Assembly (NCBI RefSeq): GCF_000746025.2
Contig: NZ_CP045798.1
Coordinates: 1,846,501-1,910,500 of the forward strand
Origin: Thermanaerosceptrum fracticalcis
GTDB lineage: Bacteria; Bacillota; Peptococcia; DRI-13
Direction of reading: 5' to 3'
Length of the DNA: 64,000 nucleotides
The translations under genes were made by a program, and so were the position numbers. Below are positions 25,380-44,015 of this stretch, one piece after another (position 1 is the first letter of the stretch; the number at the start of each line of letters is the position of its first letter). The notes below the pieces were generated by a model. That model did not search any database and was not told the DNA's origin. It saw nothing but the letters and a program-made list of their open reading frames with translations.

Positions 25380-26990
25380 TTATTCCACAGCATCTACTTC
25401 CGAGATAATATTTCCCTCTTTCTTATCCTCCTTCTTCAGACACCTGTAAATCTCCTCAAGACGTTTCTGCACCTTGTAGAATACTGTACCCTCGGGATAG
25501 TTACCCTCTGCATCGGGTGTACCCGCCGGGACACCGGTCAAAATTTCAATACCTTCTTCGATGGCCTTAACGGCGTAGATATGAAACTTACCGTCTTTTA
25601 CCGCTTCAATCACTTCGTCATCAAGCATGAGGTTAGCCACGTTCTGATAAGGAATCATCACCCCCTGTTTGCCGTTTAAACCCTTGGCCTTACAGACCTG
25701 GAAGAAACCTTCAATTTTCTGATTAACCCCGCCGATGGGCTGGACCTGTCCTTTCTGGTTTACAGAACCTGTAACCGCGATGTACTGTTTGATGGGTATC
25801 CCGGAAAGACTGGAGAGGAGCCCGTATAATTCGGTACTGGAAGCGCTGTCACCGTCCACCCCGTCATAGAGCTGTTCAAAACAGATGCTGGCAGAAAAGG
25901 AGAGGGGACATTTCCGTCCGAACTTTTCTCCCAGGTACCCGCTCAAGATGAGCACACCTTTGTCATGAATGCGCCCGCTCATTTTGGCTTCCCGTTCGAT
26001 ATTGATAATGCCCCGCTGACCCATATAGGTATTGACGGTGATCCGCGAGGGCTTGCCAAAGGAATACTCCCCCAGATCCAGAACGGCCAGCCCGTTTACC
26101 TGCCCCACTACCTTTTCTTGGGTGTCAATGAGGATGACACCTTTTTCGATCATCTCCTGGAGCTTTCTCTCGTACTTGTTGGCCCGGAAAATCTTTTCCT
26201 TGATAGCCTTCACAACATATTCCTCGGTGACCAGGTCCGCACCTGCCAGCTCAGCCCAGGTGTCGGCTTCATAAATTATTTCCACCAGTTCGTTAAAACG
26301 CGTGGAGAGCTTTTCCTGGCTGTCAGCCAGGCGGGAACTATATTCTACAATCCTGGCTACTGCCATTTTCGTAAAGTGACGGAGTTTCTCTTTCTGGCAA
26401 TGGTCACTGATAAACTGGGCCAATTTAAACATGTGGCTCTGGGTACGTTCCATTTCCACATCAAAATCGGCACGGATTTTAAAGAGTTTACGGTAGTCCT
26501 CATCATAATTGTAGAGAATCTGGTGTTCCAGGTAGCTGCCAATTAAGATGATTTTTACATCCAGGGGGATAGGTTCAGGCTTAAGGGAAGAAGTAGCAAT
26601 GGTGCCGATATGTTCAGCAATATTTTCAATGGTGATTTTCTCCGTTTTAAGTGCTCTCTTTAAAGCATTCCAGGTAAGGATGTTGGTTAACACATCACTG
26701 CACTGGAGAATCAGGTATCCCCCGTTGGCGCGGTGTAATGCCCCGGCCTTGATTTTCGTAAAATCTGTGGTTAAAACTCCCAGCTGGGTTTCATACTCCA
26801 CCCTGCCGATAAGGTTATAGAAAGTAGGGTTGCTCTCTACAATGACAGGAGCTCCCCGGGTTTTGCTGTTATCCACCAGGACATTGACCATATACTTAAA
26901 TGTAAAATCCTTAGCCCGTTCATCCTTAATAACAAACATCTCCAGGGGTGACTTTTCTTCCTTACCTTTGAATTCCTTTAGATTTTTTAA
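25380..26990 (-). pseudogene. Lon-related ATP-dependent protease, C-terminal part (IS-interrupted)
   Basis: About 536 codons carrying the end of the AAA+ module and the S16 protease domain of a LonB-like 'Lon-related putative ATP-dependent protease'. The catalytic serine lies in DGDSASSTELYG and the lysine in GGVNQKIEGFF; strand motifs KPSRITVNTYMGQ and GVLILSGYLGEKFG are present. The frame is open but joined upstream to an insertion sequence with a stop codon inside the element's terminus. Removing the IS and one TSD copy restores an in-frame junction (DILKNLKEF). An internal ATG at 26939 could start a truncated product, lacking the ATPase. Confidence 0.9.
26984..26990. repeat. Target-site duplication, left copy
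   Basis: TTTTTAA, repeated at 28619-28625 on the other side of the IS. Confidence 0.85.
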
Positions 26991-28618
26991 CAGGAGTTAT
27001 GCAGTTGGTGGAAATAAATAGAAAATGATAACTCAAAAAATATTTTAAAAAAGATCCTAATTTTCGACAAAAAAGGCTTGACTTTTTCGGAAAGCCCCCA
27101 TAATCGCTTTGGATGGTATTTTCTACCATCACTCTAGCGATATGGGTGATGCTGATGAAGAAACTGTGTAAACCAACTTTCGAAAAAAAGGATCACGGTC
27201 AAGGTGCCGGAATCCCGGTACTCAAGACAATTTGGGATTTATTTGACCTGTCTCTGCTGTTTTCCCAGTCCGGAATACGCAAACACTCCGGAATTCCAGC
27301 GTGGCTCCTGGCTTTTGCCTACATCTGCGGCCTTGTTAATCATTCAAGTTCTGCAAATCAAAATGCTAAGTTTTCAACGGAAGCTCCATTTTTACAACAA
27401 CTGCTTTCCGGGCAAATCATCTCTCAAAGTGCCTTCAGCCGGTTTCTCTCCAAGCCCTTTCAGTGGCTCCGGTTCTCTTTGGGCAGATTTGCCAGGTTAC
27501 AAGAAAATACGGATAGCAGGCTGACCGACGGCGATATCATTGCCTTAGACGATACCAAAATTGAGCATCCTCACGGTAAAAAAATCCCCTTTCTCTGTTG
27601 GCTCTTTGACAGTTCGGATAAGCGCCATGTATGGTGTATTAATCTTGTGTCGACCCTGGCTATCTTAAAGAATGGTCTTGAATATCCCATGTTATGGCGC
27701 TTTTGGGTTAAAACCGGTCAGGAGAATGAAAAACAAAGCAAGCTTGATCTTGCTAAACAGATGCTCGCAGAGGCTCGTCAGCTGAACAAGGCCAGACTAT
27801 GGGTAGCCATGGATCGCTGGTTTTTGTGTAAAAAGTTCCTGAACTGGCTGATGGGTCAAAATTTTGACTGGGTTACCAAAGCCAAACGTAACACAGCGCT
27901 ATTCAGGAAAATCTACGACCCGGTACTAGGAAAGGAACGCTACATTAAACTTAATCCGAAGCAACTGCTGCGAGAAGTTTATTCCCAGCTTCGGGTCCTT
28001 GGCAAAGAATCGGTTCTCAGTATTCCGGACATTTACATCAAAATGCCCTATGAGACCTTAACACGCAAGGGAAAACCCATTACTAGACAACGTTTTTTAC
28101 CCATAGCTGCCATTGCAGCCACTTATGAGAAGCAGGCTGTCGAGGGCAGCATAGTTCTTCCGGAGGAAGAATGCCCAGCAACCTTCAAGGATGCGTATCT
28201 CCTGATAAGCAATCGCGTAGATACGCCGGAAGAAGCTGCAACTGCCTATGTTAAACGATGGAGAATAGAAGTTTTTTACCGCACCGCTAAACAGAATCTT
28301 GGTTTAACATCTTGCTATGCTCAGTCTGAAACAGCTCATTTCGCACATGTGGAGCTCTTGTTTACAGCGAAGACCCTTCTTTGTTATGCCTCTTGGGAGT
28401 GCAATAAAGAAGGCGCCGAACAAGCCCCCTCCCTCTGCGAAGTGATAAGGTACTTCTTCAACGCCGGTTGTCGGATCCGCTGTTGCGAGCAGTTGATCCA
28501 AGTCTATTTTGACACGGCAACCCAGCGTTTTTCAAGGCTTATTGATAAATTCTGGCCACATTCTTTGGAACTTAGGTTATGGGATTGGGAAAATTATCCT
28601 GAAACTGCATAACTACTG
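26991..28618 (+). mobile_element. IS4-family-like insertion sequence, complete
   Basis: 1628 bp, bounded by imperfect inverted repeats CAGGAGTTATGCAGTT (26991-27006) and the complement of CAGTAGTTATGCAGTT (28603-28618), one mismatch in 16. It carries one transposase gene and is flanked by a 7-bp direct repeat TTTTTAA. It lies inside the Lon-related protease gene in the opposite orientation. Exact ends and clean duplication indicate a recent insertion. Confidence 0.9.
27113..28612 (+). CDS. IS4-family DDE transposase
   Basis: 499 residues. Catalytic acidic residues are visible: IIALDDTKIEHPHGKK (first Asp), WVAMDRWFLCKKFL (second Asp) and the Y-R-E-K signature KRWRIEVFYRTAKQNLGL (Glu). The frame is intact and full length, so the element may be active. 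The TAA stop lies inside the right inverted repeat. No strong ribosome site precedes the first ATG; translation could begin at internal ATG codons near residue 13-15. Confidence 0.9.
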   Translation: MVFSTITLAIWVMLMKKLCKPTFEKKDHGQGAGIPVLKTIWDLFDLSLLFSQSGIRKHSGIPAWLLAFAYICGLVNHSSSANQNAKFSTEAPFLQQLLSGQIISQSAFSRFLSKPFQWLRFSLGRFARLQENTDSRLTDGDIIALDDTKIEHPHGKKIPFLCWLFDSSDKRHVWCINLVSTLAILKNGLEYPMLWRFWVKTGQENEKQSKLDLAKQMLAEARQLNKARLWVAMDRWFLCKKFLNWLMGQNFDWVTKAKRNTALFRKIYDPVLGKERYIKLNPKQLLREVYSQLRVLGKESVLSIPDIYIKMPYETLTRKGKPITRQRFLPIAAIAATYEKQAVEGSIVLPEEECPATFKDAYLLISNRVDTPEEAATAYVKRWRIEVFYRTAKQNLGLTSCYAQSETAHFAHVELLFTAKTLLCYASWECNKEGAEQAPSLCEVIRYFFNAGCRIRCCEQLIQVYFDTATQRFSRLIDKFWPHSLELRLWDWENYPETA

Positions 28619-28625
28619 TTTTTAA
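28619..28625. repeat. Target-site duplication, right copy
   Basis: TTTTTAA, identical to 26984-26990. Confidence 0.85.
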
Positions 28626-29447
28626 AATATCCTTCTTTACTTCTTCGAGAAAATCTCCCACAGGAGGAAAGTCGCTGTATTCTTCCTTCAGGTTTTCGAA
28701 CAGGTGCCCGATAGCGGCAATCACCAGCTGGCTTTCCAGCCTTTCCACCTGCTCATGGATTTCCTTTTCCAGATCCCTGATTTTTTTGAAGGCATCTAAA
28801 ACCAGAAAATTAATGGCTTTGGATTTTTCCTCAATTTCCTTGATGGCTTCTCTGGAAAGCTGTTTATACTCTTCTTCATCCATTTGTTTCCCCTCGGCAT
28901 TGAGGGGAATGGTTAATATTCCTTTTTCCGTATTCTTTAAAGCAAAACCCAATTTTTTCGCGGCCTCATCCAGGGAGTTCCAAATCTCTGCCTGCCGGTC
29001 CTGCAGGCTCTGGTATAGCATGGTTTTTCTTTTCCCATATTCCTCCGAAGCCAGGGCTTTGGGGATGTTCAATTTTACCTGGTTAACCAGTTGAGTCATG
29101 TCATTTTGGAATTTAACCCCCAGCCCGGGCGGCAGGGTTAGCGCCTTAGGCTGGTCAGGCTTTTCAAAATTATATACATAGCACCAGTCCCAGGGAATCT
29201 CTTCCTGCATGGCCACTTCCTTTACCAGGGATTGGGTATAGCTGTTGCGACCGGTTCCCGTAAAACCAGAAATAAAGATATTGTAGCCATGCTTTCTAAT
29301 TTTTAGGCCAAACTCCATGGCTTTGACGGCCCGTTCCTGGCCAACTATTCCCTCCAGAGGCGGTACCTCTGCGGTAGTCTCGAAGGGAAAAGCAGCACAA
29401 TTACAGGCGCTTTTTAGTTGTTCGGGAGTTAATTCCCATTGTTTCAT
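28619..29447 (-). pseudogene. Lon-related ATP-dependent protease, N-terminal part (IS-interrupted)
   Basis: About 276 codons: the N-terminal AAA module with a variant Walker A (FISGFTGTGRNSYTQS, Arg in place of Lys, as usual in this subgroup) near residue 55-70, and a long coiled-coil insertion (about 130-260: KIRDLEKEIHEQVERLESQ). ATG at 29447 follows AAGGAGG. Translation now runs into the IS and stops 15 codons later. The intact protein would have been about 810 residues. Confidence 0.9.
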
Positions 29448-32794: not shown

Positions 32795-33652
32795 TTAATA
32801 TTCGGCAGGCAGTTTTTCCAACTCCGCCATACTGAATACGGGACCATCTTTACAGACAAACTTGTTCCCGATATTACAACGGCCACACATCCCGATGCCG
32901 CATTTCATCTTCATCTCTAAGGAAGTAAAGATATTCTCCGAAGTAAACCCAATTTTCTTGAGGACAGGCAAGGTAAACTTAATCATCACCGGTGGCCCGC
33001 AGACCACAGCTACGGCATTTTCTGAAGATGTTACTACTTGTTCGGTAACAGCAGGAACAAAACCTACTTTTCCCCACCAGCCCTCCACAGGCCTGTCAAT
33101 GGTAAGATGAATATCAATATCTGCCCGTGCCGACCAGTCTTGCAGTTCTTCCTTGTAGAGAAGCTGGCCGGGATTGCGGGCGCCATAGACTACAGTGAGA
33201 TTTCCGTAGTTCTTCCGGTTTTCCTCATCCAGGATGTAACGGACTAAAGAACGTAAAGTGGTAAAGGCAAAGCCTCCTCCAATAATCACCAGGTTTTTAC
33301 CTGCGAACTTTTCTAAAGGCCAACTGTTACCCAGAGGCCCCCTTAACCCTACTATGTCTCCTTTCTCCAGCATATGGAGAGCCGTGGTCACCCGGCCCAC
33401 CTTTTTCACCGAAAAGCGTACGATACCTTTTTCCGTAGGAGAACTGGCAATACCAAAAGGAGCCTCTCCGGTGCCAAAAACACTGATTTCGGCGAATTGA
33501 CCGGGGGTATAAAAGAAGGTCTCATTATCATCTTCGTTTAAAAAACCTAAAGTAAAAGTTTTCAGATCTTGTTCCGGGTTCTCCTCGATGACTTCTAAAA
33601 TCTCCATTTGATAAGGGAGATAGGGGTTTTTTATCTCACATTGACATGTCAT
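32795..33652 (-). CDS. Flox complex FAD/NAD(P)-binding subunit (FlxA-like, PyrK/AsrB family)
   Basis: 285 residues, ferredoxin-NADP reductase type. FAD-binding barrel (about 20-105, PGQFAEISV and PFGIASSP), NAD-binding domain (about 110-240, LVIIGGGFAFTTLRSL, VCGPPVMI) and a C-terminal [2Fe-2S] loop with CGIGMCGRCNIGNKFVC. It would oxidise or reduce NAD(H) for the Hdr/Flox complex. Last gene of the operon, overlapping the preceding gene by 4 nt. Confidence 0.88.
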   Translation of the reverse strand: MTCQCEIKNPYLPYQMEILEVIEENPEQDLKTFTLGFLNEDDNETFFYTPGQFAEISVFGTGEAPFGIASSPTEKGIVRFSVKKVGRVTTALHMLEKGDIVGLRGPLGNSWPLEKFAGKNLVIIGGGFAFTTLRSLVRYILDEENRKNYGNLTVVYGARNPGQLLYKEELQDWSARADIDIHLTIDRPVEGWWGKVGFVPAVTEQVVTSSENAVAVVCGPPVMIKFTLPVLKKIGFTSENIFTSLEMKMKCGIGMCGRCNIGNKFVCKDGPVFSMAELEKLPAEY

Positions 33653-34671
33653 CCTGGCATCCCCCCCAATCTTTTAAGAACCTCTCGAATATCAAAATTC
33701 ACCGGACATTTGGCTACACAACGGCCGCAACCAACACAGGCCACTGCCAGGTAATTTTCCGGGAAATACTTAAACTTGTGCAAGACCCGCTGCCTCATCC
33801 TTTCCTTACCCGTAGGACGAGGGTTATGGCCTGAACCGTGCTGTGTAAAATTACCAAACATACAGCTGTCCCAGCTCCGCACCCTCCGGCCTTCCGTATC
33901 AGTAGCCTCGTCACTGATATCAAAACAATGACAAGTAGGACACAAATAGGTACACACGCCGCAGTTCAAGCATTTCTGGTGTATCTCATCCCAAAGGGGG
34001 AGGACAAATACCTGGGAAAGTTCACCTGATAGAATTTCAGGAACAAGGCTGGCGGCTGCCGCTTGCCGGGAGACCCCTTGTAAAGCCTGGAATTTATCCA
34101 TGCTTCCGGGAGTAGCCGGACTAAAAGGTCTTTCCTGCAGGATTCCTTCTCCTTCCAGGGTATCGGCCAGGGCTAAAAACTTATCTCCCAGGTCAACCAG
34201 GAGAATATCAGAACCCTCCTTAGCCAGAGGACTAATTCCCAAATCCTGACAGAAACAGGTGCTGGCCGGTTCTGAGCAGGCTAAGGAGATGACAAAAGTA
34301 TTCTCCCTGCGCTCACGGTAATGCTGGTCCTTATACTTAGGCCCATTAAAGACCCGGTCTAAAAGGAGGATACTCCGGGCATCACAGGGCCGGACTCCAA
34401 AAAGGATAAGGGGCTTTGTGGCCGGGTTTTCCCCCATAACCTGGACGGACTTGCCTTTATCCATTCTATAGCGGATGAGGGCCTCCCATTGAGGGAAAAA
34501 GGCGTCCTTAACAGGCTTTAGGGTGTTGGTATAGCCTGTTAACTCTAACTCCTCACCATCCCAGGGTAAAAAGAGATAGCCTTCTTCTTTTAAACGGGGC
34601 GCCAAAATCTCCTTTTGCCCCAACTGCCCTTTGAGCCAGAGAAAAAAGTCATCTTTTAAGATCTCATACAT
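33649..34671 (-). CDS. Flox/AsrA-like 4Fe-4S dicluster subunit
   Basis: 340 residues. The N-terminal domain (1-220) resembles AsrA/hydrogenase-beta type proteins, with LFGVRPCDARSILLLDRVF and the cysteine pair CFCQD; the C-terminal part has two cluster motifs, CLNCGVCTYLCPTCHC (about 243) and CVGCGRCVAKCP (about 315). Such proteins relay electrons from the NAD-binding flavoprotein to the Hdr core in Flox complexes. ATG at 34671 overlaps the preceding stop (GTGATG). Confidence 0.85.
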   Translation of the reverse strand: MYEILKDDFFLWLKGQLGQKEILAPRLKEEGYLFLPWDGEELELTGYTNTLKPVKDAFFPQWEALIRYRMDKGKSVQVMGENPATKPLILFGVRPCDARSILLLDRVFNGPKYKDQHYRERRENTFVISLACSEPASTCFCQDLGISPLAKEGSDILLVDLGDKFLALADTLEGEGILQERPFSPATPGSMDKFQALQGVSRQAAAASLVPEILSGELSQVFVLPLWDEIHQKCLNCGVCTYLCPTCHCFDISDEATDTEGRRVRSWDSCMFGNFTQHGSGHNPRPTGKERMRQRVLHKFKYFPENYLAVACVGCGRCVAKCPVNFDIREVLKRLGGMPG

Positions 34672-35504
34672 CACGCTTCCCCACCTCCTGCCAGGAATGG
34701 CTCCGGGTCCCCAGGGTCATAGGTATTCAAGGGCAATTCCTGCTCTTCTTTCAATCCTGCTTCAAATTGATAGAGTTCTTTCACTTCCAGCAACATTTTG
34801 CGGTTCAAAATCCTTAAGTCCACGCCCATGGGACAGGCCCGCTGGCAGGCGCCGCAGTCCACACAGCGTCCCGCCACATGAAGGGCACGGGTCAGGTGGA
34901 AAATCAGATTATCAGCAAGCTGGGTAGATTTTCCTACCCACTGGGGCAGGTTGTTTTCCACAAAACATTCCCTGCAATAGCAGGCAGGGCAGGCATTGCG
35001 GCAGGCATAACAGCGGATGCACTTGGATACTTCTTTGTAAAAATATTCCTTACGTTCCTGGGGGGAAAGCCGGGCAAATGTTTTTACATCATGAAAATCA
35101 TCTTCCCCTGTTTTCCCTGCTTTGCCGCTCACCAGATAATCATAGATAACAGGAGACTTGATTTGGCACCCCTCGCAGCCTTCCGTGAGAGGGCAAGGGG
35201 CTCCCAGAATCACGACCCTATCCCGTGACAACTGGTTTTCCGTAAGAAGATTAACGAGGGAGCGGCTGTCACACCCTTTTACGATGATGGCCGCCTTGCG
35301 TTTTTCCTTAACCAGATAATTGGCCAGGTTGTTTTTACAGCCCTCATCCCAGACCAGTAACTCACAATCTTCCCCTCTGGTGATAAAACAGGGGGTACTT
35401 TTACCGGGCAGGGTACCTGCAGTAAAACCTATGACTACTTCTACCTGTCCTGTTTCCAGCAATTCTTGGGCTTTATCCCTTATCTCCAGGATAATTTTAT
35501 CCAT
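34671..35504 (-). CDS. Flox 4Fe-4S subunit (FdhB/FrhB-like N-terminus)
   Basis: 277 residues. N-terminal half reads like a coenzyme F420 hydrogenase/FdhB-type beta domain (VKGCDSRSLVNLL, VVILGAPCPLTEGCEGC); two [4Fe-4S] motifs follow, CIRCYACRNACPACYC (about 167) and CVDCGACQRACPMG (about 218). A cysteine-rich electron relay between the flavin subunit and the MvhD/HdrA unit. Overlaps mvhD-like gene by 8 nt and the next gene at GTGATG. Confidence 0.85.
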   Translation of the reverse strand: MDKIILEIRDKAQELLETGQVEVVIGFTAGTLPGKSTPCFITRGEDCELLVWDEGCKNNLANYLVKEKRKAAIIVKGCDSRSLVNLLTENQLSRDRVVILGAPCPLTEGCEGCQIKSPVIYDYLVSGKAGKTGEDDFHDVKTFARLSPQERKEYFYKEVSKCIRCYACRNACPACYCRECFVENNLPQWVGKSTQLADNLIFHLTRALHVAGRCVDCGACQRACPMGVDLRILNRKMLLEVKELYQFEAGLKEEQELPLNTYDPGDPEPFLAGGGEA

Positions 35505-35913
35505 TTTGTCTTCCCCCCCATCTTTCCCAAGGTTCCAGGCCTTTTACGTCTTCTGTCACGTCCTTTATCCTGGCGGCAAAACGGTTTCCTTCGGCCGCCG
35601 AGATCCAGTCAAACTGGACCCTTTCCTTTTCCACTCCTACAAAATCCAACAGGCTTTTTAACAAAGCGAACTTGCGTCTGGCTACCAAATTGCCGCTGGT
35701 GTAATGACAGTCACCGGGATGACAGCCTGCGGTCAAGACACCGTCAGCATGTTTCAAGGCCGTCAGGATAAACAGGGGGTCAACCCTGCCGGAGCAGGGC
35801 ACCCTCACGATCCTTACATTGGGTGGATACTGGAGGCGGCTGACACCTGCCAGGTCAGCTCCGGCATAACTGCACCAGTTACATAAAAAGGCTACGATCT
35901 TCGGTTCCTTCAT
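35497..35913 (-). CDS. MvhD/FlxD-like [2Fe-2S] electron transfer subunit
   Basis: 138 residues. Conserved cysteine pattern FLCNWCSYAGADLAG, RVPCSGRVDP, TAGCHPGDCHY; the family links a hydrogenase or Flox module to HdrA by a [2Fe-2S] cluster. The ATG at 35913 follows AAAGGGG by eight bases; the GTG at 35922 is less likely. Immediately downstream of hdrA (13 bp). Confidence 0.92.
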   Translation of the reverse strand: MKEPKIVAFLCNWCSYAGADLAGVSRLQYPPNVRIVRVPCSGRVDPLFILTALKHADGVLTAGCHPGDCHYTSGNLVARRKFALLKSLLDFVGVEKERVQFDWISAAEGNRFAARIKDVTEDVKGLEPWERWGGRQNG

Positions 35914-35926
35914 TCTCTTCACCCCT

Positions 35927-38900
35927 TTACCCGATTTGTCTCAGCATGGCCATGATCTGCTCGCTCCGGAACCCCCGCACATCAATGGCCCCGGCGCGGC
36001 AAGAGGCGGCGCAAGCACCGCAGCCTTTACAAAGGGCCGGGTTGACTTTGGCTATCCCTTCAGTTCGGTCCACTTCCACGGCTTTGGCAGGACAGATGCT
36101 CTCACAGGTGCCGCAGCCGCTGCATTTTAGAGGATTGACCTGGGCCGTAAGTCCTCCCGCAGCCAAAGACTCTTTATTGAGGATGGTACAGGCCCTGGCC
36201 GCAGCTGCTTTGGCCTGGGTGATTGTCTCCACCAGGGGTTTGGGTCCATGGGCCAAACCGCACAGGAAAACGCCGTCGGTGCTGAAGTCCACAGGCCTTA
36301 GTTTCATATGGGCTTCCAGGAAGAAACCGTCTTCGTTGAGGGGGACTTTTAGGGCCTGAGACAAAGCCTCATTATCCCGTGCTGCTGTAGCAGCGGCCAG
36401 GCTTAATAATGAAGCTTCTATCTCTAGCTCCCGGCCTAAGACATGGTCCCGGCAGGTGACGATAAGTTTTCCATTTGCCATCCGTACTTGAGGTTGCTTT
36501 TCCAGATCATAACGGATAAAAATAACCCCCTGCCGGCGGGCCTGCCGGTAAAACTCTTCCTGGAAACCATAAGTACGCATATCCCGGTAAAGCACATAAA
36601 TATTTAAATCGGGATTAAGAGCCTTAGCCTTAAGGGCCAGCTGGATGGACTGGTTACAGCACACCTTACTGCAGTAGGGGTGTTCCTGGTTCCGTGAACC
36701 CACACAGTTAATCATGACTAAAGATTCCATCTCTTTTACAACTTCAGACTGTTCTATCAAAAGCTTTTCTAACTCCAGGTGGGTTTTGACCAGGGGATTC
36801 TGGCCGTAGAGATATTCCTGGGGTTTGTATTCAGTGGCACCGGTGGCTATAACCACCACGCCATGGGCAATCTCTTCCTGTTTTTCCCCTTTCTCTATAG
36901 TCGTGTGGAAATTGCCCACAAATCCCTTGATCTCTTTAATTTCGCTTTCCAGGCAGGTTTTAATCAAGGGATGGCTGGTGACCTGAATTCGCAGATCTTC
37001 TAAATATGGGCGGACCGGTTCCCCCAGATGGTTGAAATAAAGCCTGTTGGCCATCCCTCCTAAGACCTTTTCTCTCTCCACCAGAAATACCGGATAATGC
37101 TGGGAGGCTATGGCTAAAGCCGCCGTCATCCCGGCTACGCCGCCGCCAATGACCAGGGCCTTTTGTTCCACGGGTACGGACACGGTCTCTACCGGTTCTA
37201 AAAGACGGGCCTTGGCCACAGCCATTTTCACCAGGTCTATGGCCTTTTCCGTAGCCTTTTCCGGCTCATGCATGTGGACCCAGGAACACTGGTCTCTGAT
37301 GTTGGCCATTTCAAAGAGGTAAGGATTGAGGCCCGCCTCTTTTAAAGTTTCCCGGAACAGGGGTTCATGGGTCCGGGGACTGCAGGACGCTACCACCACA
37401 CGGTTCAACCTGTGTTCAGCGATGATTTCCCTTATCCTGATTTGCGTATCCTGGGAACAGGTATACATATTATCTTCAACGCAGACTACATGGGGCAGAC
37501 TTCTCGCTATTTCCGCCACTTTTTTCACATCCACCACACTGGCAATGTTAATGCCGCAGTGGCAGATAAACACGCCGATCCTGGGCTTAAGTCCCACTAC
37601 ATCCTTTGCAGGAGGATAGGCTTTGGCTTTGACCAGGGAATTTTTAGCGCCAGCCAGAAGGCATGCAGCTTCACTGGCCGCGGCACAGGCCTGGGTGACG
37701 GTATCGGGAATATCCTTGGGCCCGCTGAAAGCTCCTGCCACCAGGATACCTTCCCGGGTGCTGGAAACAGGAGCATAGCCAGAGGTGGCCGCAAAATCGT
37801 ATTCGTTTAAGGCAAAACCCGCTGCCTGGGCTAATTTTAAGCTGTCTTCACTGGCACAGAGGCCTACGGAAAGTACCGCCAGGTCAAACTCCTCATAAGC
37901 AATGGTCCCGTCTTCCCGGGCATAACGGATGCGGATGTTCCCCGTCTCCGGAGCTTCTTCCACTGTATAAATACGGGAACGGACAAAACGGACTCCCTGG
38001 TTTTCTGCCCTCCGGTAGTATTTCTCAAAATCCTTACCATGGCTCCGCATGTCCATATAGAAGATGGCGGTATCCAAAGGATAAGGACTGTGCTCTTTGG
38101 CGATAACGGCTTCCTTGATGGCATACATACAGCACACACTGGAACAGTATGGTTTATCATCCTTCAGGGTACGGGAGCCGGCACACTGGATCCAGGCAAT
38201 TTTCTTTGGCTCCTTGTGGTCAGAAGGCCGTACCAGATGCCCGCCAAAGGGACCGGAAGCACTTAAAACCCTTTCAAACTGGATACTGGTCAGGACGTTG
38301 GGATAACGGCCATAGCCTAAGTGACTTAATTTCTCTGCAGGAAACTCGTTAAAGCCAGGAGCAAAAAGGATAGCCCCCACGTGGATCTTGAGCCTTTCTT
38401 CTTCCTGGAGATGATCGATACATCCGGCTTTACAAACCTTGACACACTGCATACATTCGGAACAAGGACCGCAATCCAGGCAGCGTGCGGCTTCTCTTCG
38501 CGCTTCCTCCGCTGATAAACCTAAGACAAATTCGCGAAAATCCTTAATCCTCTCTTGTGGTTCTATCTCTCTCAGTTTAACCCGTTCCACTTTCTCCATT
38601 TTCTGAGGAAGGGGCTTAGGGCCTACGGGGGTTCTCCGGTTGGGGCGCCCCAGACGCAAATCTTCTCCCTTTAAATAACGGCTGATGGATTGAGCTGCTT
38701 CCTTGCCTTCAGCCACGGCCTCAATGGCAATACCCGGACCGGTACGGACCTCGCCGCCGGCAAAGACACCAGGCAGGGAAGTGGCTAAAGTCACTTCATC
38801 GGCAGCCACAGTTCCCCATGTCGTCCGTTTTATGGTTTCAGGCAAGAAGGAAAGGTCCGGCATCTGTCCTACAGCTACAATAACCGTGTCCACGGGGATA

Positions 38901-40330
38901 AAACATTCCGAATCTGCTTTGGGCACAGGACGGCGCCTGCCGGAGGCATCAGGTTCCCCTAGTTCCATTTCCACACAGGTCATGCCTGTCAACCTTCCTG
39001 CTTCCCTGGCAAAAGACAAAGGCGTAGTAAGGAATCTGAACTGGATCCCTTCAGCCCAGGCTGCTTCTACTTCTTCTTCCCGGGCCGGCATTTCTGCCCG
39101 GGACCGGCGATAATAGACCGTGACCTCTTGGGCTCCCAGACGTAAAGCACTGCGGGCGGCATCCATGGCCACATCGCCGCCGCCGATGACGGCGACCCTT
39201 TTCCCTACGTTTACATCTTCACCTAAATTTACCTTGCGCAGAAACTCCACTCCAGACAGGACCCCTTCTCCATCTTCCCCCGGAACGTCCAGCTTCCGGT
39301 TACCGTGGGCGCCTGTGGCTAAAAAGATAGCCTTATATCCCTGGTCCTTTAAATCCTCGATCGTCAAATCAGGACCTAGAGGAGAATTCGTTTTAATTTC
39401 TACTCCTAAAGACGTCAGATAAGCTATCTCCTTATTAAGGACTTCCCTGGGCAAGCGATAATCAGGAATCCCCACGGCCAGCATGCCGCCGGCTACGGGT
39501 AAGGCTTCAAAAATGGTGACAGGGTAACCTTCCTTGGCCAGTTCAAAGGCTGCGCTCAAGCCGGCCGGACCCGAACCGACAACGGCCACCTTATCGGTTT
39601 TCCTTTCCGGTAAGACAAAGGGAGGACGGGGCTCATGATCACCCAAAAAACGTTTCAAGGCAGCAAGGGAGACAGCCCCCTCGGCCTGGGCCCTGCTGCA
39701 CTTTTCTTCACAGGGATGGGGACAGATCCGGCCCAACGTTGCTGGCAGCAAGAGATCATCATAGACAATCTCCGCAGCTTCCTTAAACTTACCCTGGGAC
39801 ATTAAAGCCACATACCCCTGGGCCCGAACACCCGCAGGGCAATTGCCTTTACAGGGGGCAGGCCCCTCTTTTTCGATGGCATAGGCATGGGGGAAGGCCT
39901 GGGCATATTTCTTGTATATAGCTTTTCTTTTGGACAGGCCTTTTTCAAATTCATTGTCTATTTCCACAGGACACACGGCCGCGCATTCGCCGCAACCGGT
40001 ACACTTTTCCACCTCAATGAAGCGGGGTTTCTTTTTTACTTCAACGTGAAAGTCCCCTGCTTCTCCTTTTACACTGACTATTTCTGCGCCGGTGATAACT
40101 TCAATGTTTAAGTGCCGGCCGCATTCCACCAGTTTAGGCGAGAGGATGCACATGGAACAGTCATTGGTAGGAAAAGTTTTATCTAAAGAAGGCATTGTCC
40201 CGCCAATGGCCGGGGATTTTTCCACCAAGTAGACCTTGTAGCCCATCTCCGCCAAATCCAGGGAAGACTGGATGCCGGCGATACCGCCCCCTGCTACCAG
40301 CACAGCTCCCACTTTTTCTAGATTGTTCAC
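35927..40330 (-). CDS. hdrA: Giant HdrA-type flavoprotein with inserted GltD/NfnB-like module
   Basis: 1467 residues, far above the roughly 650 of ordinary HdrA. Order: HdrA FAD domain with VLVAGGGIAGIQSSLDLAE (about 10-28) and CSMCILSPKLVEC; [4Fe-4S] CTGCGECAAVCP (about 110); an inserted glutamate synthase small-subunit/NfnB-like unit (about 158-590) with its own cluster cysteines (CKGNCPAG, CPHPCEEKC), FAD motif VVGSGPAGLSAAFELA and NADP motif AVIGGGDVAMDAAR; return to HdrA (CGPCSECMQC; IQCAGSR; YCSSVCCMYAIKEA); a second HdrA half starting RIGVFICHCGINI with its own FAD motif VIGGGVAGMTAALAIA; and two C-terminal clusters (CSGCGTCESICP, CKGCGACAASC). GTG start. Predicted bifurcating core with three flavin sites, able to use NAD(P)H directly through the insert (inference). 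Confidence 0.92.
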   Translation of the reverse strand: MNNLEKVGAVLVAGGGIAGIQSSLDLAEMGYKVYLVEKSPAIGGTMPSLDKTFPTNDCSMCILSPKLVECGRHLNIEVITGAEIVSVKGEAGDFHVEVKKKPRFIEVEKCTGCGECAAVCPVEIDNEFEKGLSKRKAIYKKYAQAFPHAYAIEKEGPAPCKGNCPAGVRAQGYVALMSQGKFKEAAEIVYDDLLLPATLGRICPHPCEEKCSRAQAEGAVSLAALKRFLGDHEPRPPFVLPERKTDKVAVVGSGPAGLSAAFELAKEGYPVTIFEALPVAGGMLAVGIPDYRLPREVLNKEIAYLTSLGVEIKTNSPLGPDLTIEDLKDQGYKAIFLATGAHGNRKLDVPGEDGEGVLSGVEFLRKVNLGEDVNVGKRVAVIGGGDVAMDAARSALRLGAQEVTVYYRRSRAEMPAREEEVEAAWAEGIQFRFLTTPLSFAREAGRLTGMTCVEMELGEPDASGRRRPVPKADSECFIPVDTVIVAVGQMPDLSFLPETIKRTTWGTVAADEVTLATSLPGVFAGGEVRTGPGIAIEAVAEGKEAAQSISRYLKGEDLRLGRPNRRTPVGPKPLPQKMEKVERVKLREIEPQERIKDFREFVLGLSAEEARREAARCLDCGPCSECMQCVKVCKAGCIDHLQEEERLKIHVGAILFAPGFNEFPAEKLSHLGYGRYPNVLTSIQFERVLSASGPFGGHLVRPSDHKEPKKIAWIQCAGSRTLKDDKPYCSSVCCMYAIKEAVIAKEHSPYPLDTAIFYMDMRSHGKDFEKYYRRAENQGVRFVRSRIYTVEEAPETGNIRIRYAREDGTIAYEEFDLAVLSVGLCASEDSLKLAQAAGFALNEYDFAATSGYAPVSSTREGILVAGAFSGPKDIPDTVTQACAAASEAACLLAGAKNSLVKAKAYPPAKDVVGLKPRIGVFICHCGINIASVVDVKKVAEIARSLPHVVCVEDNMYTCSQDTQIRIREIIAEHRLNRVVVASCSPRTHEPLFRETLKEAGLNPYLFEMANIRDQCSWVHMHEPEKATEKAIDLVKMAVAKARLLEPVETVSVPVEQKALVIGGGVAGMTAALAIASQHYPVFLVEREKVLGGMANRLYFNHLGEPVRPYLEDLRIQVTSHPLIKTCLESEIKEIKGFVGNFHTTIEKGEKQEEIAHGVVVIATGATEYKPQEYLYGQNPLVKTHLELEKLLIEQSEVVKEMESLVMINCVGSRNQEHPYCSKVCCNQSIQLALKAKALNPDLNIYVLYRDMRTYGFQEEFYRQARRQGVIFIRYDLEKQPQVRMANGKLIVTCRDHVLGRELEIEASLLSLAAATAARDNEALSQALKVPLNEDGFFLEAHMKLRPVDFSTDGVFLCGLAHGPKPLVETITQAKAAAARACTILNKESLAAGGLTAQVNPLKCSGCGTCESICPAKAVEVDRTEGIAKVNPALCKGCGACAASCRAGAIDVRGFRSEQIMAMLRQIG

Positions 40331-40353
40331 CTTAAATCACTTCCTTCCCCCTA

Positions 40354-41580
40354 TTAATCTAAGATCAGGGCATTACTGACCAGATGGTGAACATGTTTCA
40401 GCTTCACTTTAAGCTGATATTCTTTAATAATGTCGCTCAGCTGGTCATAACAGTTATGGCAGGGAGTAACAACAATTTTTGCACCAGTTCTTGCTATTTG
40501 CTCTGCTTTCAGCTTTCCTTTTTTCATGCGGTTAGGCTTAATATCCTTACCAAAGGCCAAAAGACCGCCACCGCCGCCGCAGCAGTAGTTATACTCCCTG
40601 TTGGGCCACATTTCTCTAAATTCCATGACAGCCTTTGTTACACAGTATCTCGGTTCTTCAACTATTCCTTCTTTCCGCACCATATTACAGGGGTCATGGA
40701 AGGTCACAGGCTCGGGATTGCGGGAAGGATCAAGCTTAAGTATCCCCTCTTTAATCCACTTAGCCTGGAGCTCTACAAAGTTATATACCGGATAGTCCCC
40801 TTCTTCAGGACTCAGCCAAACCTTCCTGCCCCAGCGCTGGGCCCGGGTAGCATGGCCGCATTCCGTTACCACCAGGTACTGTACTTTCAGCTTTTTCACC
40901 TGTTGGGCGATTCGCTTTAAAAGAATAGTTGAGGCTTCATCATCACCACTGAACAAACCATAGTGGGTTGCGTCCCAGTATTCACTGCTGCAGGTCCAAT
41001 TAGCGCCGGCAGCATGCATGATTTTGGCAATACTCTGTACATCCTGGGGATAGTATTTAATCTCACGGGGATCCCAGAGGAATAAGAAGTCAGCTCCAAC
41101 TTTATCAACAGGTATCCTTGCCTTGGGGTCAGCAATTTCTGCCTGCAGTTCTTCCTCCATCCACTCTAAAGTTTCCAGGTAGTCCTCCTGGGAGACCGCC
41201 ATCTGATTGCCGGTGTTTAATTGGTTATCAACTACCTCCTGGAGAAAACCGGGAGACTTAACCCCAAAATTACCTCTAATGGTCCTCACTATGCCGGCAA
41301 TGTCTACACCCATGGGACAGAGCATGGTACACCGGCCGCACATGGAACAATTCCAGATAAATTGGCCATTTAATACTTCCTCTTTCATGCCTAATAAAAC
41401 CTTCCGGATAAACTTGCGGGGGTCCATTTCCTCGTGGACATCGCTAAAAGCACAAGCCGCGGAACACATACCACAGGCCAGACAGTGACTAAAATCCAGT
41501 TTATCCTGGAGGGTTGCAAAAACTTGGGCAATTTCCTGCCTGAATTTAGGTTCCAGAGCCTTTGTTCGAATGACCGCCAT
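40354..41580 (-). CDS. HdrD/DsrK-like heterodisulfide reductase subunit (HdrC-HdrB fusion)
   Basis: 408 residues. N-terminal HdrC-like part with two [4Fe-4S] sites, CLACGMCSAACAF (about 33) and CSMCGRCTMLCP (about 81). The C-terminal HdrB-like part has one complete CCG domain: DPCNMVRKEG, YCCGGGGGLL and TPCHNCYDQL, binding the noncubane cluster that cleaves disulfides; the first CCG repeat is degenerate (ECGHA). Fits the catalytic disulfide-reducing subunit with DsrC-type protein substrates encoded just upstream. AGGAGG before the ATG. Confidence 0.92.
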   Translation of the reverse strand: MAVIRTKALEPKFRQEIAQVFATLQDKLDFSHCLACGMCSAACAFSDVHEEMDPRKFIRKVLLGMKEEVLNGQFIWNCSMCGRCTMLCPMGVDIAGIVRTIRGNFGVKSPGFLQEVVDNQLNTGNQMAVSQEDYLETLEWMEEELQAEIADPKARIPVDKVGADFLFLWDPREIKYYPQDVQSIAKIMHAAGANWTCSSEYWDATHYGLFSGDDEASTILLKRIAQQVKKLKVQYLVVTECGHATRAQRWGRKVWLSPEEGDYPVYNFVELQAKWIKEGILKLDPSRNPEPVTFHDPCNMVRKEGIVEEPRYCVTKAVMEFREMWPNREYNYCCGGGGGLLAFGKDIKPNRMKKGKLKAEQIARTGAKIVVTPCHNCYDQLSDIIKEYQLKVKLKHVHHLVSNALILD

Positions 41581-41592
41581 AAGTAACCTCCT

Positions 41593-41937
41593 CTAACATT
41601 CTACTTGCCAAACCGGGATCCCCAGCACCTGGCTGACAATGCTGTCCAAAAAAAACAGGGTGTGAGGCCAGTCGGAAAAGAGAGCAAAAAACTCGCCCAG
41701 GGACAGACCGGTCAGGGAACACAGTTCTCGCACAGAAGGGGCCCGTTCCTTTTCCAGGTAATACTTGCGTACATAGTCCATCACCTGGCGATGCCGGGGA
41801 CTAATGGTTTCAATACCCTCTTTTTTGAGAATTTCTTGGACCATCTCTTCCCAGAGGGAATCTTCTTTAATGCAGTCAGGTCCTATGGCTAAATAACGAC
41901 GCCGGAGTTGTGAACCCAAAAGATTTAGACCTCTCAT
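41593..41937 (-). CDS. DsrC/TusE-like protein with one terminal cysteine
   Basis: About 114 residues. The C-terminal two thirds follow the DsrC fold pattern: ETISPRHRQVMDYVRKYYLE, then RELCSLTGLSLGEFFALF (the segment that reads NTLEIYRLF in its neighbour). The C-terminus is PVWQVEC: a single last-residue cysteine, and the partner cysteine of canonical DsrC is absent. It could carry persulfide but not form the usual intramolecular disulfide. ATG at 41937 preceded by AAAGGTG. Confidence 0.75.
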   Translation of the reverse strand: MRGLNLLGSQLRRRYLAIGPDCIKEDSLWEEMVQEILKKEGIETISPRHRQVMDYVRKYYLEKERAPSVRELCSLTGLSLGEFFALFSDWPHTLFFLDSIVSQVLGIPVWQVEC

Positions 41938-41958
41938 AAAATGCACCACCTTTCCTTC

Positions 41959-42246
41959 TTAACAACCTGATAAAGAAGACAATCCCGCAATACGGCAAGG
42001 ACCCCGCACAGGACCTGAGGGAAAGAGTCGATAAATTTCCAAGGTATTTAACCCCGTATGGGTGCAAATTTTGCGAAGAGAGGGTATCTGTTGAAAATCT
42101 TCATAATAATTGCGGATAAAGGAGATCACCAGCCAGTGTTTTTCCGTCAAATGCTCAATACCCTCATCACGGGCCAACACCTGGGCTACTTCCTCATCCC
42201 ATTCCGACCAGTCCACCAGGTAACCCTCCCTATCCATCCTTGCCAT
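41959..42246 (-). CDS. DsrC-like protein with the two-cysteine C-terminal arm
   Basis: About 95 residues with full DsrC architecture: LTEKHWLVISFIRNYYEDF, PSLRKICTHTG, LEIYRLFPSGPVRGPC and a C-terminal arm GPCRIAGLSSLSGC. The two cysteines are separated by ten residues, exactly as in redox-active DsrC, though the family's last residue after the final Cys is missing. Canonical DsrC carries a sulfur as a trisulfide between these cysteines. Three ATG codons lie close together (42252, 42246, 42237); 42246 is best spaced from GGGGGA. First gene of the sigma-54-controlled operon. No dsrAB in the window. Confidence 0.82.
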   Translation of the reverse strand: MARMDREGYLVDWSEWDEEVAQVLARDEGIEHLTEKHWLVISFIRNYYEDFQQIPSLRKICTHTGLNTLEIYRLFPSGPVRGPCRIAGLSSLSGC

Positions 42247-42281
42247 AGCCATTCCCCCATCCTGTTTTTACTTTTATATAA

Positions 42282-42298
42282 AGCAAATACCATGCCAA
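42282..42298 (-). promoter_or_regulatory. Sigma-54 promoter of the dsrC-hdr-flox operon
   Basis: Minus strand TTGGCATGGTATTTGCT: TGGCAT, 5 bp, TTGCT, with GG and GC correctly spaced. Transcription should start about 25 bases before the first dsrC-like ATG. Confidence 0.8.
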
Positions 42299-42303
42299 CA
42301 AAA

Positions 42304-42346
42304 AAAGTGCCTGAAACCCTTGTTAAATCAAGGTTTCAGGCACTTT
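42304..42346 (-). terminator. Terminator of the sigma-54 activator gene
   Basis: 15-bp stem AAAGTGCCTGAAACC/GGTTTCAGGCACTTT with an inner TTG/CAA, then seven T on the minus strand. It lies between the activator gene and the sigma-54 promoter, insulating the two transcripts. Confidence 0.88.
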
Positions 42347-42362
42347 CCTCCTTAAAAATACA

Positions 42363-42398
42363 GGGTAAATATTATACATAGATGTATAATATTTACCC
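42363..42398. promoter_or_regulatory. 36-bp perfect palindrome, enhancer site candidate
   Basis: Arms GGGTAAATATTATACAT and ATGTATAATATTTACCC around AG. It lies 65-116 bp upstream of the sigma-54 promoter, the usual distance for an enhancer-binding protein, and next to the gene of such a protein. Confidence 0.65.
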
Positions 42399-42485
42399 AG
42401 ATAAAAATGCAAAACATTTAAGGGAAAAAGGCTATCTTTAGTAAGAGGAGGTACTCTTCTGTATAAAGAATTTCCACACTACAAA

Positions 42486-43802
42486 TTACAAGCCGTATTT
42501 TTGCATTTTATTATAAAGGGTTTTACGGGTTATACCAAGGAGCTGGGCCGCCTTTTGTTTATTTCCTTCACACTGTCTTAATACTTGTTTAATATGATGT
42601 TTTTCCAGGTCATCCAGCCTGATAAAAGCGCTGTCCCCAGTGTTGGCTGTCATAATCATATAAAGGGGCAGGTCTTGCAGCATGATAAAATCCCCCTTAC
42701 CCTTTATAAAGGCATATTCTAAGGCATTTTCCAGTTCCCGGACATTTCCGGGAAATTCATATTGGAGTAAAAAGTTTAAAGCCTCCCGGGAAACTCCTTT
42801 TTTAGCCTTTTGAAAAAAGACATTAAACCTACGAATGAAGTATTCGTTTAAAAGAGGAATATCGTTTTTCCTCTCCCTTAAAGGGGGCAGCTTTATCGGA
42901 AAAACATTTAAACGATAAAAAAGGTCCTGGCGGAAATTACCCTTCCTTATTTCCTCAGTTAAATTGCGATTGGTGGCTGCAATAACCCGCACATCGGTTT
43001 TTAGTGTTTTCTTCCCCCCTACCCTCTCAAATTCCCCCTCTTGCAACACCCGGAGCAGCTTGGCTTGTAAAGATACCGGAATTTCCCCAATCTCGTCCAG
43101 GAAAATGGTGCCTTTGTCAGCCAGTTCAAAACGGCCCTGGTGGGTGGAATGGGCACCGGTAAAAGCCCCCTTCTCGTGTCCAAAAAGTTCGGACTCCAAC
43201 AGGGTGGGCGTCAAGGCCGCACAATTGACTTTTATAAAAGGTTTATAACGCCTGTCGCTTAAAAAATGTATGGCTTTAGCTACCAGCTCCTTTCCCGTGC
43301 CGCTTTCACCTACAATGAGGACACTGGAACGGTAGGGAGCCACAGCTTCGACCATTTCATATATTTCCTGCATTTTATGGTCTTTGCCGATAATATTTTG
43401 AAAACTATAACGCCCTTCGAATTCCTGGCGCAGGCGCTGGATTTTACGCTGGTCGGAAAGAATTTCTAAACCCCCGATTATATTCCCAGAGTTGTCAAAT
43501 AAGGGCATCACCGATATTTCTACAGGAACAAATTCGCCATTCTTGGCTACAATAACCACATCAGTGGAATAACCCTTTTCTCCGCTGTTTACTACTTTTT
43601 GCATGAGACAATTTTCTCCGCAGCAATGGGAGCTTTTCAAAAGTTCGTAACACTTTCGACCCAGGGCAGTATCCCGTTTGTAGCCCGTAATATGCTCTGC
43701 CGCATTATTAAAGGTAGTTATATTAAATTCTGTATCCACAGTGAAAACCCCTTCAGAAATACTGTTGACTACAAACTCAAAATCTATCTGTGTTGGGCTC
43801 AT
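42486..43802 (-). CDS. Sigma-54-dependent transcriptional activator (PAS-AAA-Fis)
   Basis: 438 residues. N-terminal PAS domain (about 5-120) containing the unusual cysteine group SSHCCGENCLMQ; AAA+ domain (about 130-370) with Walker [15 protein letters not shown] loop, GTIFLDEIGE and FRQDLFYRLNV; C-terminal Fis HTH (GNKQKAAQLLGITRKTLYNKMQKYG). Start ATG at 43802 after a run of G; the longer frame start is unsupported. It precedes the dsrC-hdr-flox operon, whose sigma-54 promoter it should activate, and borders the ORP/MinD cluster. The PAS cysteines suggest redox or metal sensing (inference). Confidence 0.92.
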   Translation of the reverse strand: MSPTQIDFEFVVNSISEGVFTVDTEFNITTFNNAAEHITGYKRDTALGRKCYELLKSSHCCGENCLMQKVVNSGEKGYSTDVVIVAKNGEFVPVEISVMPLFDNSGNIIGGLEILSDQRKIQRLRQEFEGRYSFQNIIGKDHKMQEIYEMVEAVAPYRSSVLIVGESGTGKELVAKAIHFLSDRRYKPFIKVNCAALTPTLLESELFGHEKGAFTGAHSTHQGRFELADKGTIFLDEIGEIPVSLQAKLLRVLQEGEFERVGGKKTLKTDVRVIAATNRNLTEEIRKGNFRQDLFYRLNVFPIKLPPLRERKNDIPLLNEYFIRRFNVFFQKAKKGVSREALNFLLQYEFPGNVRELENALEYAFIKGKGDFIMLQDLPLYMIMTANTGDSAFIRLDDLEKHHIKQVLRQCEGNKQKAAQLLGITRKTLYNKMQKYGL

Positions 43803-44015
43803 CCCATTCCCCCCCCTTCTTCCTTGACGCTCACACAGGGGCAAGCCCCGTGTAAGCGTTAATTACTTGTGGATTACAATACTATACAAATGATAATTGA
43901 CAAGAATATTTGCTATGTCGTACCCCTCCATTGCAGCGGTTTTCTTGCAATGTGCAAGCTAAAAGAGACATATAGGGAAAAATTCATAGAGGGAAAAGTG
44001 GGCATGAAAATAAAT
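43803..44015. other. Gene-free promoter region of the activator gene
   Basis: About 210 bp; contains an imperfect inverted repeat around 43824-43860 (GCTCACACAGGGGC / GCCCCGTGTAAGCG) in the activator's leader. No further gene seen. Confidence 0.35.

Follow-up and report, generated by a model that had tools for sequence, protein, structure and literature searches.

Two DsrC-fold proteins at the head of a sigma54-controlled Flx–Hdr operon in Thermanaerosceptrum fracticalcis may be accessory regulators rather than thiol carriers

In dissimilatory sulfur metabolism, DsrC is considered the thiol hub. Two described systems are closest to the locus analyzed here. The FlxABCD-HdrABC complex of Desulfovibrio vulgaris has DsrC as a partner (Ramos 2015; Ferreira 2023, via PMC4759654 and PMC10504309), and the two reportedly interact (Ferreira 2023, as described in PMC10504309). 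For Desulfotomaculum reducens, a Gram-positive sulfate reducer, the Hdr loci Dred_0137-0148 and Dred_1325-1330 have been proposed to reduce DsrC (PMC4759654). We have analyzed a window, the whole stretch of 64,000 nucleotides, from the complete 3.8 Mb chromosome of Thermanaerosceptrum fracticalcis, in which a related operon begins with two genes that we term dsrC1 and dsrC2. Like the D. vulgaris system, this locus unites an NADH module, FlxB/C-like proteins, MvhD, HdrA and a CCG reductase in a single operon, with DsrC as the proposed thiol partner. Unlike that system, it encodes a single HdrD/DsrK-type CCG subunit instead of HdrB plus HdrC, its HdrA is fused to a GltD-like module, and two DsrC-like genes and a sigma54-type control region stand at its head. 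The HdrA/MvhD/HdrD/FlxA-type content is shared with the D. reducens loci; however, no DsrC-like pair is reported there (PMC4759654), and a DsrC2 pattern scan of genomes returned no Desulfotomaculum locus. DsrC1 resembles canonical DsrC, the DsrAB partner, in fold, arm motif and, in this genome, in both cysteines, but its operon is a different one and its cysteines are not conserved in orthologues. Another point of comparison is RspA, a group of the DsrC superfamily discussed by Venceslau in 2014 and reportedly proposed to be regulatory and cysteine-independent. The likeness is one of description: a DsrC fold (AF2/Foldseek) with dispensable arm cysteines. In contrast to RspA, the proteins described here come as a pair of genes linked to a sigma54 activator.

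All genes of the locus lie on the minus strand in the order PAS–σ54 activator, dsrC1, dsrC2, hdrD, hdrA, mvhD, flxC, flxB, flxA (Table 1), and within the operon they overlap or are 4–23 nt apart (9 nt between dsrC1 and dsrC2, 12 nt between dsrC2 and hdrD). FlxA, FlxB, FlxC, MvhD, HdrA and a CCG catalytic subunit, the gene set of an FlxABCD-HdrABC-type complex, are encoded in a single operon. The initial annotation had described two DsrC-family ORFs heading an Hdr/Flx operon and preceding an HdrD/DsrK-type reductase. We can confirm this, since both exceed the Pfam PF04358 cut-off and both lie closely upstream of a CCG reductase of HmcF/TmcB/DsrK type and of HdrA-MvhD-FlxCBA. The best NCBIfam models for the CCG subunit are HmcF (283 bits), TmcB (275 bits) and DsrK (186 bits), all below their equivalog cut-offs, and the HdrA fusion protein scores 985 bits with HdrA2 (cut-off 1100) and 548 bits with PRK12771. 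Elsewhere in the window (25380-29447), a transposase-like ORF (27113-28612, plus strand) lies between the minus-strand ORFs 28572-29447 and 25380-26939, which read as two halves of a single protein and suggest an IS insertion splitting a Lon-type AAA protease gene.

Table 1. Features of the dsrC1-led operon and its control region (window positions)
Feature	Position	Strand	Basis
PAS-AAA(sigma54)-Fis-HTH enhancer-binding regulator	42486..43844	-	Pfam PAS, Sigma54_activat 250 bits, HTH_8
Double dyad GGGTAAATATTATAC..GTATAATATTTACCC, putative upstream activating sequence	42363..42398	-	top site pair in window
Hairpin + T run, presumed to terminate the activator gene	42304..42346	-	15-bp perfect arms
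Sigma54 -24/-12 promoter-like element TGGCATGGTATTTGCT	42282..42297	-	29 nt before dsrC1; 11/12 consensus positions
DsrC1, DsrC-fold, 97 aa, Cys86/Cys97 in C-terminal arm	41959..42252	-	PF04358 101 bits; AF2 model
DsrC2, arm-less DsrC-fold, 118 aa from GTG	41593..41949	-	PF04358 36.9 bits; AF2 model
HdrD/DsrK-type CCG reductase, 408 aa	40354..41580	-	CCG 43.6 bits
HdrA + fused NADPH-glutamate-synthase-like (GltD/NfnB-type) FAD module, 1467 aa	35927..40330	-	
MvhD/FlpD	35497..35922	-	PF02662 174 bits
FlxC-like Fe-S protein	34671..35504	-	4Fe-4S domains; assignment by position and conserved order
FlxB-like (AsrA/ShyB-like) Fe-S protein	33649..34674	-	Fer4_22 118, ShyB 164, AsrA 122 bits
FlxA-like NAD(P)H-binding FAD protein	32795..33652	-	NAD_binding_1, DHODB_Fe-S; AsrB 189 bits

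The initial annotation had assumed a genome without dissimilatory sulfite reductase, and this assumption has to be given up. The same chromosome encodes dsrA (560 bits, NCBIfam cut-off 393), dsrB (489 bits, cut-off 341.5), dsrMK and, adjoining dsrMK and dsrAB at 1275480, a third, canonical two-cysteine DsrC (…GPAKGACKLAGLPKPTGCV). An asrABC-like set, assigned by domain match and reading of the ORFs, is located near the dsr locus at ~1.294 Mb (L009 11606-14434; genome about 1.2936-1.2964 Mb) and gives this genome a second sulfite reductase system. Since no aprA scores above the cut-off in the genome (best 28 bits), sulfite is a likelier acceptor than sulfate. A cognate dsrABC set elsewhere, together with a failure of the pair to interact with the Hdr subunit, had been named beforehand as the finding that would count against thiol carriers, and the genomic half of this, including an own canonical DsrC, is present. 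In a separate observation, short DsrC-like proteins ending in PMPKEC (L071 8695-8988 and similar loci) adjoin canonical DsrC and divergent dsrAB with about 35% identity to the dsrAB of this genome.

We searched for DsrC2 in class and phylum samples and in 84,980 species genomes, with short patterns that can miss divergent copies. The arrangement was found in nine genomes, several of them incomplete and some of them MAGs: T. fracticalcis, M1_7_4_bin.22 of the same genus, Candidatus Formimonas warabiya, Acididesulfobacillus acetoxydans, UBA3933, K_7_2_bin.50, BRH_c7a, CROMO_A_192 and a congener of the latter. A dsrA above the cut-off and a canonical DsrC occur in eight of these nine (the DsrC of CROMO_A_192 being a contig-end fragment), and UBA3933 (89% complete) has the pair with no dsrA match and no canonical DsrC. 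In A. acetoxydans the operon lacks DsrC1 and carries DsrC2 twice; the second DsrC2 gene has its own sigma54-like element, upstream of the sigma54 activator (L079 7243-10348). Hdr and DsrC are not mentioned in the Formimonas metaproteome paper; the A. acetoxydans papers name the canonical DsrC (DEACI_0677), and their passages matched by term search do not describe the DsrC-pair locus. HdrD and HdrA are 54-55% and 71-75% identical to their window counterparts in L078 and L079 (the latter from A. acetoxydans), while the order is reversed in K_7_2 and BRH_c7a (HdrD 73-76%, HdrA 63-68%), suggesting a mosaic history of the operon.

A CCG reductase of HdrD or DsrM/DsrK type adjoins the pair in 9/9 loci (the CROMO_A_192 contig stops after a DsrM-like gene). 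The rest of the operon differs, with HdrA-Flx, HdrA-Mvh hydrogenase or DsrM-DsrK genes; in G129 the activator and the pair precede DsrM-/DsrK-like genes and not Hdr/Flx. Eight of the 398 phylum genomes, all with dsrA, have an HdrD orthologue (63–70% identity) without DsrC2. In G030, a genome with dsrA and a canonical DsrC, the order HdrD–HdrA–MvhD–FlxC–FlxB–FlxA occurs but the pair and the activator are both missing, and HdrD is solitary in several other genomes without the pair. The activator behaves differently from the enzyme: an orthologue (at least 70% identity) stands beside the pair in eight of the nine loci, K_7_2 being the exception, and in the 398 phylum genomes matches of ≥73% identity are confined to pair-bearing genomes, with one further match at 53%. 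By these sequence comparisons, the pair tracks the PAS-σ54 activator rather than the enzyme operon. We also noted HdrA-HdrD-MvhD followed by NiFe-hydrogenase-like genes (L035 3633-10899, L171 5980-13306), after the pair in UBA3933 and pairless in G030.

In 128 kb (both strands of the window), only two sites score as well as the σ54 element of the control region. A σ54-like element is present in all loci, 29–40 nt before dsrC1 or, in A. acetoxydans, 57–61 nt before dsrC2; it is weak in K_7_2 (9/12), and in G129 an insertion parts it from dsrC1. A hairpin precedes the element in all loci and in most of them has a T run. The double dyad consists of two GRGTAAWWWTTAYNC sites 21–22 bp apart and scores 28, against 22 for the next in the whole window. 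It is found in six loci, the window and five others, and is not clearly above shuffles in UBA3933, K_7_2 and A. acetoxydans; as the motif was derived from some of the sequences compared, all shuffle counts are descriptive. A rpoN gene is present in 9/9 genomes tested. The activator probably binds the candidate double dyad and drives the σ54 promoter directly before dsrC1.

DsrC1 exceeds both family cut-offs (Pfam PF04358, 101 bits against 24.9; TIGR03342, 88.8 against 53.5), and its single-chain AF2 model resembles 2v4j_C, the DsrC chain in the DsrAB complex of D. vulgaris, with a TM of 0.88. Its C-terminal end is LFPSGPVRGPCRIAGLSSLSGC. The observation that its cysteines are spaced as in DsrC is correct, with ten residues between Cys86 and Cys97 as in canonical DsrC, although CysB is the last residue in DsrC1 and the penultimate one in canonical DsrC. 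Because both cysteines and the IAGL arm motif are retained, DsrC1 of T. fracticalcis may be redox competent. At the CysA/CysB positions its orthologues have W/C (M1_7_4_bin.22 and Formimonas), C/none (UBA3933, CROMO_A_192 and its congener), Y/none (K_7_2) or A/shifted C (BRH_c7a). Thus, CysB is retained in three of eight, CysA is absent even within the genus, and the IAG(L/V) motif persists in orthologues without the cysteines. Both arm cysteines occur in 43/43 canonical DsrCs and 1/8 DsrC1 sequences, the window copy only (Fisher p 7e-8, on rows that are phylogenetically non-independent). The canonical set was picked from the same sampling by its TGCV tail, and hence the informative positions are its CysA and both positions in DsrC1. 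Conservation of CysA and CysB in orthologues, by which a redox-active DsrC is recognized, is seen neither in DsrC1 nor in DsrC2. A strictly conserved penultimate cysteine has been described for DsrC (PMC3397948), a rule from which most DsrC1 orthologues depart in sequence. In the tree DsrC1 and DsrC2 each form one group (94/92 and 100/100). The window DsrC1 branches first, on a fairly short branch that is the shortest of DsrC1 apart from a near-identical pair, and independent loss of the cysteines among the orthologues is therefore the simplest reading. A much faster evolution of DsrC1 than of the enzyme subunits (same-genus protein identity 51% versus 93–98%) was considered and rejected, as dS between the two congeneric genomes is uneven along 32795-43844, from 0.06 (FlxC) to 3.1 (activator), which hints at recombination or a strong constraint on codons. 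Given this variation only dN/dS is used, with caution: 0.31 and 0.22 for the DsrC pair and 0.06–0.21 for the enzyme subunits.

The likelier start of DsrC2 is the ATG at 41937, which matches the orthologues and gives 114 aa. Its score lies above the Pfam cut-off (36.9 bits, 24.9) and below that of NCBIfam TIGR03342 (32.2, 53.5); its profile matches DsrC structures (2.7e-9), and DsrC is the sole confident Foldseek match of its AF2 model (prob 1.00, E 0.01, TM 0.49). Where DsrC has the arm, the model has a helix (94–109), and this helical tail is conserved. It had been claimed that the protein has only the terminal cysteine of the DsrC arm. DsrC2 does end in cysteine (…GIPVWQVEC), but alignment and model, with the arm replaced by the predicted helical tail, rule out that this residue is CysB. 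It is unconserved, being found in the genus of the window and, shifted, in A. acetoxydans only. Invariant in nine sequences are Cys26, Cys77 and several residues of the W-containing tail; Cys77 aligns, by eye, with a position that is often cysteine in canonical DsrCs. A LexA-like HTH similarity was discarded as a sign of DNA binding, since canonical DsrC scores in the range of most DsrC2 sequences. With this unspecific similarity and the mostly neutral to acidic charge of the orthologues, DNA binding by DsrC2 is not favoured.

Resting on the operon order, the sigma54-like element and dyad, the loss of cysteines in orthologues, dsrABC in the genome and the co-occurrence of the activator, we favour, at a probability of roughly 0.45, a σ54-controlled Flx–Hdr operon with canonical DsrC as its likely substrate, led by two DsrC-fold proteins that are accessory and probably regulatory. 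Canonical DsrC is the best candidate substrate because it is present in the genome, and if it is the substrate, DsrC1 and DsrC2 would be accessory. We favour a regulatory role on two grounds: the pair is linked to the activator, and the enzyme can do without the pair. Against this reading stand the K_7_2 locus, with no activator and a weak element, the possible redox competence of DsrC1 in this genome, and the small basis of nine genomes with some incomplete MAGs. Moreover, the CCG reductase beside the pair in all nine loci would equally suit a physical partner of that subunit. This leads to the main rival: non-catalytic proteins docking at the DsrC site of HdrD/DsrK, as pseudo-substrates or as adaptors gating canonical DsrC. 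The constant CCG operon despite its changing remainder and an arm motif kept without cysteines would fit such docking; yet orthologous HdrD manages without the pair in eight genomes and the activator is the pair's other constant partner, so that we regard docking as rather unlikely.

The pair had originally been read as redox-active thiol carriers of the Hdr complex, with a protein disulfide or trisulfide as the substrate and the unequal proteins as sulfur donor and acceptor. The first part is plausible, given the HmcF/TmcB/DsrK-like CCG subunit and the D. vulgaris DsrC report, but the candidate is canonical DsrC. The donor and acceptor pair is not supported, as the arm cysteines occur together in one of eight orthologues, CysA is lost within the genus, DsrC2 is armless, A. 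acetoxydans lacks DsrC1, a pairless enzyme operon exists and canonical DsrC is at hand in eight of nine genomes. Even with the correctly spaced cysteines, DsrC fold and short branch of the window DsrC1, and with UBA3933 carrying the pair alone, we consider thiol carriers improbable. Least probable by far is a relay of persulfide sulfur through a single terminal cysteine, as TusE performs in tRNA thiolation: the CysB of three orthologues and the cysteine end of DsrC2 here would agree with it, but CysB is lost in most, no Tus/DsrEFH partners are seen in the operon, the NCBIfam TusE equivalog gives 61.9 and 27.8 bits against a cut-off of 191, and neither protein has a strictly conserved penultimate cysteine.

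For the favoured regulatory reading we propose that the PAS-type activator acts on the double dyad and thereby on the σ54 promoter of the dsrC1-led operon. The product would be a soluble complex of FlxABC-MvhD-HdrA with a DsrK/HmcF-type CCG subunit, which most likely uses NAD(P)H as electron donor, passes electrons by bifurcation to ferredoxin and reduces the canonical DsrC from the dsrAB-dsrMK-dsrC locus at its disulfide or trisulfide. DsrC1 and DsrC2 would be paralogues with a DsrC fold that have not been kept as thiol carriers, most likely RspA-like accessory regulators that tune or monitor DsrC/reductase status in the sigma54 circuit. More tentatively still, duplication of DsrC could have given rise to a module of a cysteine-independent DsrC1 and an arm-less DsrC2, which together with the PAS-sigma54 activator senses DsrC/reductase status and controls Hdr/Dsr-type operons. 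The analysis names an arm-less DsrC subfamily and defines a σ54 control region, and the DsrC2 part of the system is open to testing in cultured Acididesulfobacillus acetoxydans. A DsrC gene next to an Hdr complex is readily taken to encode its substrate, and the present case cautions against assigning a substrate role from neighbourhood. If the module exists as proposed, the fold of a redox substrate would have been turned into a dedicated regulatory pair.
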